Both the position numbers and the translations under genes were made by a program. A DNA stretch of 64,000 bases from Pseudoxanthomonas mexicana (GTDB lineage Bacteria; Pseudomonadota; Gammaproteobacteria; Xanthomonadales; Xanthomonadaceae), in assembly GCF_010093385.1 (NCBI RefSeq), contig NZ_PDWV01000018.1, positions 1 through 64,000 on the forward strand. Direction: 5' to 3'. The notes beneath the pieces were generated by a model. That model saw nothing but the letters and a program-made list of their open reading frames with translations. It did no database searches and was not told the DNA's origin. Numbering within the stretch: the stretch's first letter is position 1; the number at the start of each line of letters is the position of its first letter. Below, one piece after another: positions 1,839-63,744 of this stretch.

Positions 1839-2429
1839 TCAGTTGAACCGCGCGCCGGGTTCGGGGCCGGGCACGCCGCGCGCGGGGTCCATCGCGTCGA
1901 CGACGGCGAGGCGCTGCGCGAGTTCATCATCGCTTAGTACGCCCTCGCGGTGCAGCCACTTGAAACGGCTACGGTGCTGCTCGGGCGAATCGTTCTCTGG
2001 CATGAAGTCGTATTGCTCGCGCATGTAAGCGGCTCGACGGGTGACGATCTCGTCGAGGATGCGCTGACCCTCCGGACCGTCGATGACCAGCAGATTGCCG
2101 GCCTCGGTCGGAATGATGGTGAAGCGCGTCGAGAACAGGTGATAGGCGCCGTAACAGGCCAGGCCCACCCAGATCCAGAACGAGATCTTCAGCCCCTGGT
2201 CGCCGGTCAGGCTCAGGCCCGTCGTCACCACACCGAGCACGATCCACAGCAGGCCCACGTTGCGCAGCCATTGGTTGCGCTCGACCAGGGTCTGCCGATC
2301 GCGGCTGATCGCCGAGTAAGGCACCGAGAACGAGCGGCTGCCGGAACTGTCCTGCACGTGGTAGTCCAGTTCCTCGTCACCGAAGACGTAACGCACCCGG
2401 TTGGAGTACTTCTTCTGACTGATTTCCAT
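1839..2429 (-). CDS. Two-TM membrane protein of unknown function
   Basis: A 196-residue protein from the ATG at 2429, chosen over an ATG at 2507 because of its GGGGAGG ribosome-binding site and because the upstream extension is unlike protein. Residues 1-55 are soluble and look like a small beta domain (YSNRVRYVFGDEELDYHV). Two hydrophobic segments follow at about 60-80 (VGLLWIVLGVVTTGLSL) and 88-108. A C-terminal cytosolic region (RFTIIPTEAGNLLVIDGP, KWLHREGVLSDDELAQRL) resembles a bPH-like fold followed by a SHOCT-like short helix (GVLSDDEL). I do not know the function. It has its own terminator and a second terminator upstream, so it is probably monocistronic. Confidence 0.75.
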   Translation of the reverse strand: MEISQKKYSNRVRYVFGDEELDYHVQDSSGSRSFSVPYSAISRDRQTLVERNQWLRNVGLLWIVLGVVTTGLSLTGDQGLKISFWIWVGLACYGAYHLFSTRFTIIPTEAGNLLVIDGPEGQRILDEIVTRRAAYMREQYDFMPENDSPEQHRSRFKWLHREGVLSDDELAQRLAVVDAMDPARGVPGPEPGARFN

Positions 2430-2510
2430 GTCGGCCTCCCCGCGGCCTCTCCGATGGCAGGGGACTATAAGCGACGGGGCGTGACACGTCAGCCCCGTGC
2501 AGGGCACAAA

Positions 2511-2535
2511 GAAAAACCCCGCCGAAGCGGGGCTT
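2511..2535 (-). terminator. Rho-independent terminator after icmF
   Basis: The stem GCCCCGC/GCGGGG (loop TTCG) is followed on the minus strand by GTTTTTC. It lies 15 bases past the mutase stop codon. Confidence 0.8.
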
Positions 2536-2549
2536 TCGTTTTCTGCGGC

Positions 2550-5500
2550 TTACATGTTCCGCCGGTACTCGCCGCCCACGTCGTACAGCGCGTGGCTGAT
2601 CTGGCCCAGGCTGTGGGTCTTCACCGCCTCGACCAGGGCCTCGAACACGTTGCGGCGCTCGCGGGCGGTACGCTGCAGGTAGGCCAGGCCGTGGCCGTCG
2701 TGGACTTCCGGCTCAGCGTGTTCTTCCATCGCCGCGGCGTGGCTGTGGTCGGTCTCGCCTTCCGGCGCCAGCCCGTTGCGGCTGGCCTGCCACGCGCGGA
2801 CGTTGGCGATCTGCTGGGCCTTCTCTTCCTCGGTCGAGCGGATCAGCTCGATCTCGGTGGCGATCTCGCCGCCGTGCTCGCGCGGCAGGAAGGTGTTCAC
2901 GCCCACCAGCGGCAGGCTGCCGTCGTGCTTCTTGTGCTCGTAGTACAGCGACTCTTCCTGGATCTTGCCGCGCTGGTACATGGTGTCCATCGCGCCCAGC
3001 CCGCCGCCGCGCTCGCTGATGGCCTCGAATTCCTTGTAGACCGCCTCTTCCACGATGTCGGTCAGCTGGTCGACGACGAAGCTGCCCTGCCAGGGGTTCT
3101 CGTTGAAGTTCAGCCCCAGCTCCTTGTTGATGATCATCTGGATGGCCACCGCGCGGCGCACGCTCTCTTCCGTGGGCGTGGTGATCGCCTCGTCATAGGC
3201 ATTCGTATGCAGGCTGTTGCAGTTGTCGAACAGCGCATACAGCGCCTGCAGCGTGGTGCGGATGTCGTTGAACTGGATCTCCTGCGCGTGCAGCGAGCGG
3301 CCCGAGGTCTGGATGTGGTACTTCATCATCTGGCTGCGCTCGTTGGCGCCGTAGCGCTCGCGCATGGCACGCGCCCAGATGCGACGGGCGACGCGGCCGA
3401 TGACGGTGTACTCCGGGTCCATGCCGTTGCTGAAGAAGAACGACAGGTTGGGCGCGAAGTCGTCGATCTTCATGCCGCGCGCCAGGTAGTACTCGACAAT
3501 GGTGAAGCCGTTGCTCAGGGTGAAGGCGAGCTGGCTGATCGGGTTCGCCCCGGCCTCGGCGATGTGGTAGCCGCTGATGCTCACCGAGTAGAAGTTGCGC
3601 ACGCCGTTGTCGACGAAGTACTGCTGGATGTCGCCCATCATGCGCAGGGCGAACTCGGTGCTGAAGATGCAGGTGTTCTGCGCCTGGTCTTCCTTCAGGA
3701 TGTCGGCCTGCACGGTGCCGCGCACGGTGGCCAGCGTCTCGGCCTTGATGCGGGCATAGGTGTCCGCGTCCACCAGCTGGTTGCCGGTGATGCCCAGCAG
3801 GCCCAGGCCCAGGCCGTTGTTGGTCGGCGGCAGTTCGCCGTGATACTGCGGCCGAACGCGGCCTTCGAAGAAGGCGTCGATCTTCTTCTGCGCCTCGGCC
3901 CAGCGCGCGTCGTCGGCCTTCAGGTACTTCTCCACCTGCTGGTCGATGGCGGTGTTCATGAACATTGCCAGGATGATCGGCGCCGGGCCGTTGATGGTCA
4001 TCGACACCGAGGTGGTGGGCGCGCACAGGTCGAAGCCGGAGTACAGCTTCTTCATGTCGTCCAGCGTGGGGATGTTGACGCCGGAGTTGCCGATCTTGCC
4101 GTAGATGTCCGGACGCGGCGCCGGATCTTCGCCGTACAGGGTGACGCTGTCGAAGGCGGTGGACAGGCGCGCGGCCGGCTGGCCGACGCTCAGGTAATGG
4201 AAGCGGCGATTGGTGCGCTCCGGCGTGCCCTCGCCCGCGAACATGCGGATGGGGTCCTCGCCGGTGCGGCGGTACGGATACACGCCGCCGGTGTACGGAT
4301 AGCTGCCCGGCAGATTCTCCTTCTGCAGGAACGTCAGCAGTTCGCCCCAGCCCTGGTACGGCGGCGGCGCGATCTTCGGGATCTGCTGGTGACTGAGCGA
4401 GGTGGTGTAGTTGTCGATGCGGATGGTCTTGCCGCGCACCTGGTACTCGTTCACCGGGTCGGTCACCGCCTTGTGGCGGGCCGGCCATTCGCGCAGCAGC
4501 TTGAGCGCTTCGGACGACAGCGACTGGATCGCATCGTTGTAGCGCTGGCGCAGCGTCAACAAGGAGCGGTCGGGGCCGTTGTAGGAGCGGGCCATGCCCG
4601 CGATGCTTTCCTCCGCAGCCGACGGAAGAGCATCGCGCCCATGGGGCGCATCTACAAGAGCGTCGGTGGCGTAAAGCTCCAGCGCCTTCGGCAACGCCGG
4701 ATCTTCCAGATCCTTCAACGCGTTCCAGTAGTGTTGCGCGCGGCTGGCGGTCTCGGCTTCGGTCTCGATGCGGCGATTGATGCCGCGGCCCTGTTCGGCG
4801 ATCTCGGCCAGGTAGCGCACGCGGCTGCCGGGGATCAGCACCGTGGCGCGTGGTTCCTTCAGATCCGTGTCGATGGCGGGCGTCCACTTCTCCGCCGGCA
4901 GCTGCAGCTTGTCGCGCAGCAGGCGGCACAGGTTGGCGAACATCCAGCTGACGCCGGGGTCGTTGAACTGGCTGGCGATGGTGGGATACACCGGCACGTC
5001 GGCGTCCGCGGTCTGGAACGCCACGCGGTTGCGCTTCCACTGCTTGCGCACGTCGCGCAGGGCGTCTTCGGCGCCGCGCTTGTCGTACTTGTTCAGCACG
5101 ATCAGCTCGGCGAAGTCGATCATGTCGATCTTCTCCAGCTGACTGGCCGCACCGTAGTCGCTGGTCATGACGTACATGGGGAAGTCGACCAGGTCGACGA
5201 TCTCCGAATCGCTCTGGCCGATGCCGGCGGTCTCCACGATCACCAGGTCGAAGCCCAGCGACTTCAGGAAGGCGATGCAGTCCTTCAGCACGGCATTGGT
5301 CGCCACGTGCTGGCGGCGGGTCGCCATCGAGCGCATGTAGATGCGCTCGCTGCGCAGCGTGTTCATGCGGATGCGGTCGCCCAGCAGCGCGCCACCGGTG
5401 CGGCGACGGGTGGGATCAACCGAGATCACCGCGATGTGCATCTGCGGGAAGCACGACAGGAAGCGGTTCATCAGCTCGTCGGTGACCGACGACTTGCCCG

Positions 5501-6185
5501 CGCCGCCGGTGCCGGTGATGCCGACCACGGGCGTTCCGCCCGTGCGGGAATGGGGAACGGGGAATGGGGAATCGGAGCCGGCGGCAGCCCATTGCTTGCG
5601 CAGCCTGGCCAGCTCCTGCTCATTGAAAACGCCATCCTCGATGGCGGACATCATGCGGCCGATGGCGGCTTCGTCGTGCAGATCGGGCCTGACGGCGTGC
5701 AGGGATTCCCCATTCCCTGTTCCCGATTCCCGCGCGTGCTGCGCACGCGCCACCACGTCCTGGATCATTTCCACCAGGCCCATCTTCATGCCGTCGTTCG
5801 GGTGGTAGATGCGCTCCACGCCGTAGGCCTGCAGTTCGGCGATCTCCTCCGGGGTGATGGTGCCGCCGCCGCCGCCGAACACGCGCACGTGGCCGGCGCC
5901 ACGCTCCTTCAGCATGTCGACCATGTACTTGAAGTACTCGACATGTCCGCCCTGGTAACTGGCCAGCGCGATGCCGTCGGCGTCTTCCTGCAGCGCGGCG
6001 CGCACGACATCCTCGACGCTGCGGTTGTGGCCCAGGTGGATCACCTCCGCACCCTCGCCCTGGATCAGCCGCCGCATGATGTTGATGGCGGCGTCGTGCC
6101 CGTCGAACAGGCTGGCCGCGGTCACGAAGCGCAGCGGCGTACGGTCGGTCTGGGCGGCGGGAAACTGGCTGGCGGGTGTACTCAC
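2550..6185 (-). CDS. icmF: Fused B12-dependent acyl-CoA mutase with G-protein chaperone
   Basis: A 1211-residue three-part protein. Residues about 17-150 form a cobalamin-binding Rossmann domain with D-x-H (SLFDGHDAA). Residues about 218-440 are a MeaB-type GTPase: P-loop GTGGAGKS at 225-232, [15 protein letters not shown], switch ETAGIGQSD and NKYD. Residues about 565-1170 form the mutase TIM barrel ([36 protein letters not shown]). This order is that of IcmF, which interconverts isobutyryl-CoA and n-butyryl-CoA and reloads its own cofactor; a methylmalonyl-CoA or other branched acyl-CoA substrate cannot be excluded by eye. It is about 100 residues longer than usual for IcmF, partly because three repeat-derived peptides sit near 151-163, 203-217 and 509-538. 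The start is GTG at 6185 with a weak ribosome-binding site. Confidence 0.85.
4581..4655. repeat. GTAG-headed REP pair inside the icmF coding frame
   Basis: The arms GTAGGAGCGGGCCATGCCCG and, reversed, GGCGCATCTAC match the intergenic doublet at 33099-33172 nearly base for base, including the GCGATGCTTT inner segment. Here the doublet is translated in frame as about 30 residues ([20 protein letters not shown] and onward) near residues 509-538 of the mutase, between the GTPase and the mutase barrel. The frame splits the TAG head into GTA-GAT, so no stop arises. Confidence 0.85.
5535..5577. repeat. GGGAATGGGGAA-type repeat in icmF frame, copy 1
   Basis: The tract GGGAATGGGGAACGGGGAAT and its continuation closely resembles the purine-rich intergenic repeat at 27256-27365. 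It is translated as [14 protein letters not shown] immediately before the GTPase P-loop. It is a linker position, which may explain tolerance. Confidence 0.65.
5702..5737. repeat. GGGAATGGGGAA-type repeat in icmF frame, copy 2
   Basis: The tract GGATTCCCCATTCCCTGTTC and the following CCGATTCCCGCG is the same repeat style in the opposite orientation to the copy at 5535-5577. It is translated as [10 protein letters not shown] at the boundary between the B12-binding domain and the G-protein domain. Confidence 0.65.
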
Positions 6186-6306
6186 GCGTGCTCACTCACG
6201 GTACGAATGCAGAAGCGGGATTGTAGCCGCTCGTGCGTGAGCACCTCACCTTTTGCATACCAATGGACCGGCTCGCCTCACGATACGGGAGCGTGCGGAA
6301 CGCCGG

Positions 6307-7236
6307 TCAGCACAGCCCGAACGGCAGCGCATGCGTGGACACGACGCGCTGCCCGACGGGGTCGCCACGAAGGAAGCGCAGCGACGCATCGAGCGTTTCC
6401 GGCGCGATGGTCACGCGGTGGTGGCCCAGGCCGGTGGTGCTGAGCAGCGTGGCCTGCGGCCAGTAACGCGCGTAGCGCTCACCCTCGCACCACGGCACAT
6501 CGGTGTCTTCCAAGTCGTGCACGATCAGGCCGGGACGACCGATGCGCGGGGCCGTGGCGTGGGCATGCAGGTCGCCCACGTCATGAGCGGTGAGTTCCTG
6601 GTACTCGTCGAACAGGCGCCGGCTGAGGAACTGCGCCAGTCCCACCATGCCGCCGAAGCGGCGCGCGGCGTCGAAGGGATCGGCCGCAGGCGCCAGCAGG
6701 ATCACCCGTTCTGCCTGCAGCCCGCGCGCCATGGCGATGGCGGTCCCTGCCCCGCCCAGCGAATGGCCGACGACGGCGGCCAGCGGGCCGACGTGTTCGC
6801 CTACGCGGACAATCGCGTCGGCGAACATCGGCAGCGTGGCGCGGCGGCCGCTGCTGCGGCCATGCGCGGGCTGGTCGAACGTCACCACGGCGTAGCCAGC
6901 GCGACGCAGCGGTTCCACCCACGGCAGGAAACGCAGGCCAAAGCTGGACCAGCCATGGGCCAGCAGGACGGTCGGCTGGCGGGCGGGATCGCCCCATGTA
7001 TAAGTGGTCAGCCGTTCGCGGCCGAAGACCAGTTCACCCACGCGCGCGCCGCCGGTATCGGCCTGCCTCGCCCGCGTGCGGGCACCGGGCATGGGCGTGC
7101 AGAACAGCTGGAACGCGCGGGTCAGCGTGCTGCGCGGGGCGAGCCAGCTGCCGACGGCCAGGCGGACGCTCAGCAGGCGCAGCGCGAGAGGTTTGCGAAC
7201 GGTCGTGCTATTTTGACGGACAGTGACAGCGGCCAT
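6307..7236 (-). CDS. Alpha/beta hydrolase
   Basis: A 309-residue protein with the alpha/beta-hydrolase core: strand-loop LLAHGWSSFG (oxyanion HG), nucleophile elbow VVGHSLGGAG, acid in EDTDVPWCEG and catalytic His in TTGLGHHRV. No signal peptide is seen, so it is probably a cytosolic esterase or lipase-like enzyme of unknown substrate. It starts at the ATG at 7236, 20 bases after the tetR stop, so the two genes look co-transcribed. The first 25 residues are basic and may be over-annotated: the coding bases 7196-7213 repeat a sequence found upstream of tetR and could be an operator inside or just before the true gene. Confidence 0.85.
   Translation of the reverse strand: MAAVTVRQNSTTVRKPLALRLLSVRLAVGSWLAPRSTLTRAFQLFCTPMPGARTRARQADTGGARVGELVFGRERLTTYTWGDPARQPTVLLAHGWSSFGLRFLPWVEPLRRAGYAVVTFDQPAHGRSSGRRATLPMFADAIVRVGEHVGPLAAVVGHSLGGAGTAIAMARGLQAERVILLAPAADPFDAARRFGGMVGLAQFLSRRLFDEYQELTAHDVGDLHAHATAPRIGRPGLIVHDLEDTDVPWCEGERYARYWPQATLLSTTGLGHHRVTIAPETLDASLRFLRGDPVGQRVVSTHALPFGLC
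7196..7213 (-). promoter_or_regulatory. Candidate TetR operator, copy in hydrolase 5' end
   Basis: On the minus strand this reads AAATAGCACGACCGTTCG, identical over 18 bases to the sequence at 7886-7903 upstream of tetR. The core ACGACCGT fits the ACG-nn-CGT half-site pattern common in TetR-family operators. It overlaps codons about 9-14 of the annotated hydrolase. Confidence 0.45.
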
Positions 7237-33098: not shown

Positions 33099-33172
33099 GT
33101 AGGAGCGGGCCATGCCCGCGATGCTTTTCCACATCCGCCTGCAGCAGCATCGCGCCCATGGGGCGCTCCTAC
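33099..33172. repeat. GTAG-headed inverted REP pair supplying a stop codon
   Basis: GTAGGAGCGGGCCATGCCCG (left) faces CGCGCCCATGGGGCGCTCCTAC (right). The TAG of the right head, read on the minus strand, is the stop codon of the NUDIX gene at 33169. The doublet is a near twin of the one inside icmF (4581-4655). Confidence 0.8.
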
Positions 33173-42794: not shown

Positions 42795-42864
42795 GTAGGA
42801 GCGCCCTCGGGCGCGATGTTTTTTTAGCAGCAGCGAAGAGCATCGCGCCCAAGGGCGCTCCTAC
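42795..42864. repeat. GTAG-headed inverted REP pair (GCGCCCTCGGGCGCGATG type)
   Basis: GTAGGAGCGCCCTCGGGCGC and its reverse CGCGCCCAAGGGCGCTCCTAC are separated by about 28 bases. The same pair recurs at 59909-59984 and 62734-62797. It lies between the metallophosphoesterase gene and the 3' end of the his operon. Confidence 0.85.
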
Positions 42865-59908: not shown

Positions 59909-59984
59909 GTAGGAACGCCCTCGGGCGCGATGCTTTTCGATCTGGATTCCCGAGCAGGAGCATTGCGCCCGAGGGCGCTCCTAC
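59909..59984. repeat. GTAG-headed inverted REP pair (GCGCCCTCGGGCGCGATG type)
   Basis: GTAGGAACGCCCTCGGGCGC faces GCGCCCGAGGGCGCTCCTAC with about 30 bases between. It is the same type as 42795-42864 and 62734-62797. It interrupts proA-proB spacing without disturbing either gene. Confidence 0.85.
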
Positions 59985-62715: not shown

Positions 62716-63744
62716 CGAAATCTCCATAGAACTGTAGGAGCGCCCTCGGGCGCGATGCTTTTCTACGACCCATGATCGCGCCCGAGGGCGCTCCTCCAAA
62801 GGCACGCCTTCGAGCTCTTCATGGCCGAACGCCAGGTTGAGGTTCTGCATCGCCTGCGTCGCCGCGCCCTTGAGCAGGTTGTCCAGGGTCGCGACCACGA
62901 CCAGACGCTTGCCGCCGGGGGCCAGGGTGAAGCCGCCGATCTCCACGCCGTGCCGGCCCGCGATGCGGCTGACCCAGGGCGCCTCGTCCAGCACCTGGAT
63001 CAACGGTTCGCCCGCATAGCGCTCGCGATACAACGCACGGACGTCTTCGATCTTCATCGCCGTCTGCAGCCACAGGTTCACCGTCATGGTGATGCCACGG
63101 AAGTGCGGCGCCACGTGCGGCATGAACTCCACCGGCAGACCGAGTTGGCGGCTGACCTCGCGCTCGTGCAGATGGTCGGCCAGCGCGTAGGGCATCAGGT
63201 TGTCCCGCAGCAGCTCGGTGTTGTTCTTGTCCGACGGCGTGGTGCCCGCGCCGGAATAGCCGGACACGCCGAAGCACTGCGGCGGACCGGCCAGACGGTC
63301 CTTCAGCGGGGCGATGGCCAGCTGCATGGCGGTGGCGTAGCAGCCCGGATTGCTGATGCGCTTCTGTCCCGCGTACTTCTGCCGGGTCAGTTCGGGCAGG
63401 CCGTAGTACCAGCGCTCGTCGAAACGGTAGTCGGCGGACAGGTCGACCACAACGGTATCCGGCGCCTGCGCGTCGATGGCCGCGACAAGCTCAGCGGCCT
63501 TGCCGTTGGGCAGCGCCAGGATCACCGCGTCCGCGCCCTTGCCGCCCACCTGTTCGTGGCTCAGGTTCTCGTAGCGCAGTTCGCCGGAGAACTCCGGGAT
63601 GTGTTCGCTGACCTTCTGTCCGTCGAGCTCGCGCGAGGACACGAACGCCAGTTCGAGGTGCGGATGGCGCGCGATCAGGCGGATCAGCTCGGCGCCTGTG
63701 TGCCCGCGGGCGCCGACGATGCCGACGGTCTTGGAGGTGCTCAT
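62533..63744 (-). CDS. argC: N-acetyl-gamma-glutamyl-phosphate reductase, read through a REP
   Basis: The ArgC enzyme itself is residues 1-316 (63744 to 62797): [59 protein letters not shown] (catalytic Cys), [35 protein letters not shown]. The gene should end near 62794, where the REP head would provide TAG in frame; here it reads GAG, so the frame runs on through the REP and the first 29 codons of argH and stops at 62533 only because of the argH frameshift. The real protein is therefore probably ArgC of 316 residues plus an 87-residue aberrant tail, or the mutation is a sequence error. The start is the ATG at 63744, overlapping the GNAT stop. Confidence 0.85.
62734..62797. repeat. GTAG-headed REP pair inside the argC-argH junction, one head mutated
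   Basis: GTAGGAGCGCCCTCGGGCGC faces ATCGCGCCCGAGGGCGCTCCT; the right head should be CTAC (as at 42864 and 59984) but reads CTCC at 62794-62797. On the minus strand this turns the in-frame TAG into GAG. It occupies almost the whole gap between argC and argH. Confidence 0.85.

Follow-up and report, generated by a model that had tools for sequence, protein, structure and literature searches.

The main finding obtained in this work was that a single interdomain linker of the fused isobutyryl-CoA mutase/GTPase IcmF looks, from the sequences compared, like a place where mobile DNA has landed repeatedly and given new protein sequence. In Pseudoxanthomonas mexicana, the 64,000-nucleotide stretch analysed (the window) carries icmF on the minus strand at 2550..6185, an intact open reading frame of 1211 residues that matches NF045497 over its full length with 1640.1 bits (cut-off 1500) and in which Pfam recognizes B12-binding, MeaB and mutase domains. 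The gene is thus identified as IcmF, its activity being predicted, and the intact 1211-residue mutase described in an earlier note on this DNA was confirmed. A plus-strand open reading frame at 1950-6443 was discarded as a gene, being antisense to IcmF. In an alignment of 187 IcmF proteins, the repeat lies in the variable linker between the G-protein and the mutase domains (linker 2; 4572..4670, minus strand, residues 506-538), whose length ranges from 6 to 90 residues, 9 being the commonest, and is 33 residues in the window protein. Pfam puts the site between the MeaB-like and mutase domains, in agreement with the location proposed earlier, and a linker between these IcmF domains is described in the accessible text of PMC10481361. 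The nearest solved chain, 4xc6 from Cupriavidus metallidurans, aligned weakly across the site (about chain residues 515-530), and five linker peptides gave no Pfam match at E up to 1.

The translated element at 4581..4655 (residues 511-535) is a GTAG-type REP doublet, REPIN-like, with arms of 29 nt each (4579-4607 and 4629-4657) that are 79% complementary and separated by a gap of 21 nt. It has the GTAG head and the palindromic stem of a REP doublet, the left head being exact and the right one, GTAGATGCG, having two mismatches to the pattern, and its family shows the inverted pairing and the many genomic copies that define a REPIN. Its 25 codons replace the previous estimate of about 30. The element had been called almost a copy of the doublet that lies between genes at 33099..33172; the two belong to the same family and agree in the left arm and through most of the right one, but the inner spacer differs. 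Similarly, the head is indeed read as GTA-GAT, but the proposal that this change was needed to avoid the TAG was ruled out, because the ordinary GTA-GGA reading of the head is also open and offsets 0 and 2 are mostly open in the doublets of the same genome. The earlier note had also raised the possibility of an assembly insertion, and this was rejected since the sister genome G021, a one-contig assembly with a 97% identical IcmF, carries the same insert with different substitutions.

The doublet family is well represented outside icmF. The own genome contains 37 exact occurrences of the head pattern and, with up to two mismatches allowed, 33 forward and 29 reverse ones (11 and 16 for the reversed-pattern control). 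In the 64-kb window alone, at three mismatches, the pattern did not exceed shuffled sequences (5 matches against 3.47 expected, with 25 of 100 shuffles reaching 5); despite this count, the exact genome-wide matches indicate that the family is not a product of chance. For an 87-nt stretch over the doublet, the own genome gave 41 matches and G021 gave 96, and 19 of the 38 genomes of the genus had a match. Further GTAG-type doublets of the window, recognized by a head/tail rule, lie between genes at 42795..42864 and 59909..59984, and at the 3' end of argC (TIGR01850) at 62734..62797, where the repeat is read in frame. By a loose form of the rule, 28 other own-genome doublets were collected from 24 regions and the window, one or two of which may belong to a related family. 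One of them is read at the end of argC; the others were placed between genes or at gene ends by open reading frames and third-position GC rather than by family scans. The own genome also has two Y1 transposase genes, both full-length matches to the REP-associated tyrosine transposase (RAYT) family NF047646. One of them (L125; 126.9 bits, cut-off 80) has three doublets of the family to one side of it and one or more to the other, the arrangement looked for in a cognate RAYT, and a RAYT of this lineage most likely moved the icmF copy.

Homologues with empty and filled sites support the earlier claim that a mobile palindrome was accommodated in the linker. By protein search, icmF was found in 30 of the 38 genus genomes, 28 of which gave a full linker. 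In total, 190 IcmF loci were collected and 187 gave a near-full protein, L029, L030 and L105 being left out as partial (the L030 linker is empty-like); removal of 20 near-identical rows left 167 non-redundant proteins. Near relatives are over-represented in this sample, because 80 named loci were the best of at least 586 and 80 further genes came from 80 of 246 matching genomes taken nearly in score order, with the genus left out. The 167 linkers comprised 69 of repeat class (or a remnant), 60 empty and 38 other. Empty-site linkers are typically 8-12 residues long, bounded by a conserved LY on one side and by DRSL or DKTL on the other, as in AADALTDGG before DK or PADALVGEG before DRSLL (L015), and they miss the stretch at about the repeat borders, as predicted for an insertion; the sister species has the same insert. 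Within the genus, 26 of 28 linkers were of repeat class (L011, L018 and L019 as remnants only), one was empty (L015, 9 residues) and one was other. Two genus members have linkers identical to those of P. sacheonensis and P. sangjuensis (L021/L036 and L025/L092, respectively), so that this genus is probably Pseudoxanthomonas. Judged by linker sequence, the repeat family of the window occupies icmF only in the own genome and G021 among these 28, and the only other IcmF found with it, at the same place and with a shorter spacer, was that of a distant Thermomonas (L034, the genome of L148).

The same linker is filled by very different repeats in other lineages. The 69 inserts form 13 classes, assigned by peptide patterns composed after inspecting the linkers, and most of them begin within a few codons of one point. 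Six classes (A1-A6) are GTAG stem types, B, C, D and H are CTCTCCC-like hairpins, and E, F and G are of the VIPAKAGIQ, VIPSAARDL and VRPERSPQGE types, respectively. Comparison of the insert DNA showed that classes B, C, D and H belong together, leaving at least five unrelated kinds; only two other cross-class links were seen, the composite L101 and a double insert in L212 (A2 with A4). In L101, linker 2 reads as a class-B repeat followed by a class-E-like tail, as if a second repeat had landed beside the first. Several of these kinds are multi-copy repeats: the A2 insert had 22 and 20 matches in the own genomes of two species and the A3 insert 66 and 63, while the G insert had 47 in its own genome and none in the second genome queried. 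A joined query of ten inserts, with 38 candidates scored per genome, recovered each at its own icmF and, among the matches listed, further copies that were clear for C, D, E, A4 and H, at least two for F and at least one for A5. In most rows of repeat class, folding of the insert DNA was better than that of 60 mononucleotide shuffles, while the inserts of L002 (z -1.1) and L034 (z -0.8) fold weakly. Parsimony on a FastTree tree built without the linkers gave 55 changes, 52 of them into a repeat class, but poor resolution of some branches, and probably also exchange, makes this count too high. We therefore take the 13 classes, or the five kinds, as the safer lower bound. A DNA tree built for the genus and two rows from outside it had good support at 13 of its 27 inner branches, and 9 were open. 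The presence of unrelated repeats at the same place in other species strengthens the earlier suggestion of a route to new linkers.

The reading frame of the inserts is also informative. In all 19 GTAG-type icmF inserts, which are partly related to each other, the head stands at frame offset 0. Among the 56 readings of the 28 other own-genome doublets, 46 were open at offset 0, 47 at offset 2 and 5 at offset 1, where GTAG doublets meet the TAG; since offset 2 is about as often open as offset 0, the single frame is not explained by openness alone. The peptides read at offset 2 contain more cysteine (6.6% vs 0.7%), which suggests that they may be selected against. For the B-C-D-H group, most of the six frames were open in eight copies that were judged to be non-genic, and a peptide of an alternative frame appeared in only one of 187 linkers (L044) by peptide list; the statement that inserts of the B-D group share one frame is partly circular, because the peptide patterns were made after seeing the linkers. 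Regarding substitutions, the insert differs between the window and its sister in 6 of 25 codons, all six nonsynonymous and none synonymous, whereas the rest of icmF differs in 167 of 1186 codons, 29 nonsynonymous and 138 synonymous (Fisher p = 4.8e-5, the insert counts being small). On these small counts, and with linker 1 evolving fast as well, the amino acids of the insert show no constraint while the rest of the enzyme is constrained.

Starting from what was observed directly, that is, the identity of the repeat, the empty and filled sites, the several multi-copy kinds, the frame and the relaxed amino-acid evolution, we hypothesize that palindromes insert recurrently and that harmless copies keeping the frame survive in a tolerant interdomain loop, a reading that we regard as likely. 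The site would be a short loop of about 9 residues, presumably flexible, that tolerates added residues. A REPIN-like GTAG doublet would have entered it before the window species and its sister separated, moved most likely by a RAYT of the lineage, and the insert is presumably translated in the cell. In-frame insertions giving a harmless, cysteine-poor peptide would persist and the rest would be lost, a filtering probably acting at the peptide level. In other lineages, the same few codons would have received different palindromic repeats, some of them of kinds that lack a GTAG head, and within the genus recombination or lineage sorting may also have distributed alleles of the same class.

A hot spot at the DNA level, in which the RAYT prefers a target with pyrimidine-T before GTAG regardless of what the protein tolerates, would account for some of these data. 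In 14 of the 19 GTAG-type inserts, across five stem classes, the heads share one nucleotide directly after the fifth linker codon (mostly Leu), so that target choice could fix the frame of these elements; the other five begin elsewhere, all still at offset 0. Own-genome copies are preceded by CT or TT in 45 of 56 flanks and the icmF insert is preceded by CTT, hence target choice may contribute. Nevertheless, kinds without a GTAG head (classes B-H) occupy the same few codons, ValS, ABC-F and GcvP, discussed below, are entered at other sequence, and CT and TT are so common that the preference alone could hardly pick one codon, for which reasons we consider a hot spot an unlikely explanation. It seems more doubtful still that the inserts were retained because longer linkers alter the coupling between GTPase and mutase. 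The position between the two domains (described in the available part of PMC10481361) and the repeat class in 26 of 28 genus members are what such tuning would lead one to expect, but the linkers, from 6 to 90 residues, have no common sequence, one genus member (L015) is empty, and the lack of amino-acid constraint between window and sister tells against it. Since the insert gathers amino-acid changes freely, a tolerated passenger fits better than a tuned part.

We find it very improbable that a few old insertions were followed by later exchange, with an ancestral repeat overwritten by recombination among repeats or alleles, despite several traces of the kind that such a history would leave. 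Besides the single nucleotide at which many GTAG inserts start, there are, among near relatives, six pairs of one class whose inserts are equally long and 87-94% identical, for which reason each pair is probably one insertion spread by descent or exchange, and L013 (A3) is nested with good support inside a class-B clade, its insert being alike to that of L006. On the other hand, empty sites are frequent (60 of 167), the five kinds have no detectable common DNA save in the composite L101, the A1 family appears again in the distant Thermomonas L034 with a shorter spacer, and a comparison of the similarity of the linker flanks gave no clear sign of exchange. Recurrent insertion with survival of harmless frame-keeping copies is our preferred reading.

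Similar inserts occur in other proteins, which indicates that the process extends beyond IcmF. With a class-B peptide as query, 15 of 38 genus genomes gave matches; the six best all belong to IcmF, which is no surprise because the query was an IcmF peptide that included its flanks. Of fifteen further matches, picked for long open frames, five are convincing as in-frame inserts, located in ValS (two), an ABC-F-like protein (two) and GcvP (one), while the other ten lay upstream of genes, antisense, or were unclear; the L228 region, obtained from the IcmF search, had no convincing in-frame insert. The ValS loop before DAEKWI, read at L233-L262, L213 and L215 (32 loci, L215 repeating L258), is occupied in 11 of the 31 genus genomes by translated repeats of two kinds, one GEGARRADGG-like and the other VGGASAPT/VGVASAAT-like. 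The ABC-F-like inserts of L220 and L221, which come from two species, share one position between the ATPase halves; the ABC-F family cut-off was exceeded in L220 and just missed in L221. In the GcvP of one genus member (L216), a class-B repeat sits in a loop, in frame. Tolerant loops in general thus appear to be entered, the IcmF linker being the most often occupied among those seen. A bolder view, that the loops of IcmF, ValS, ABC-F and GcvP are standing gates by which unrelated mobile palindromes go on adding coding sequence in this family of bacteria and that some inserts tune domain coupling, is at present a speculation to which we give little credence.

In-frame REPs are themselves already known. 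REP singles and dimers within open reading frames, coding for 20-30 amino acids, were reported in 2013 (PMC3733652), and in the sections of that paper available to us its authors propose that intragenic REPs form flexible linkers or loops and describe different REPs at about the same recB site in two Xanthomonas species. The accommodation, which the earlier note held to be unusual, is not unique, given these published intragenic REPs and the similar inserts of ValS, ABC-F and GcvP. The intragenic GTAG/CGTC REPs of that study likewise lie within coding sequence; as far as its accessible text goes, its account of intragenic REPs does not name IcmF, and what differs here is that, throughout a family of bacteria, one enzyme linker accommodates several unrelated kinds, for which the frame and the substitutions were analysed as well. 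Relative to the accessible part of that work, what is new is that unrelated repeats have entered one and the same linker again and again, and no report of repeats in the IcmF linker, or of many unrelated kinds using one linker, was found in the open-licence literature, where IcmF itself was queried narrowly. The palindromic elements of Rickettsia (RPEs) are also read in frame within unrelated genes (PMC10969869, from its available text). Host and elements are different, RPEs being set apart here by description rather than by sequence, and, according to that text, they spread over many genes whereas here many kinds reach one site. A GTAG head of the GTAGGAGCG type is given for Xanthomonas and some Pseudomonas in the portion of PMC2817692 at hand. 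The icmF doublet shares with the RAYT-associated REPs and REPINs the GTAG head, the inverted pairing and a RAYT gene among the copies; these, as far as described there, are mainly extragenic, unlike the icmF copy, which is coding and has one degenerate head.

The linker provides a natural series, in which many inserts at one site of one enzyme can be compared, close relatives with an empty site included, and it makes testable how non-coding mobile DNA becomes protein, whether neutral or put to use. It also calls for caution, since such linkers may differ in length for reasons other than function.

Other observations concern neighbouring sequences. In seven proteins (L048, L051, L053, L054, L059, L066 and L104) from Arenimonas, Dokdonella and relatives, a linker 2 of 52-61 residues contains a GERR..DRRK..F.W-like segment, two peptides of which had no Pfam match. 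The 62734-62797 doublet is passed without a stop by argC, which continues in frame into an apparent argH start, the sequence downstream being one that we take to resemble the beginning of this gene; the argH-like frame shifts shortly afterwards, an apparent frameshift or sequencing error. Finally, linker 1 of the window IcmF has translated short repeats of a GGGAATC type at both ends, inverted to each other, one in its upstream part (5703..5732, minus strand) and a similar one of opposite orientation in its downstream part (5544..5576, minus strand), both with coordinates taken from residue numbering. This linker is fast-evolving, with 10 nonsynonymous and 7 synonymous differences in 70 codons between the window and its sister.
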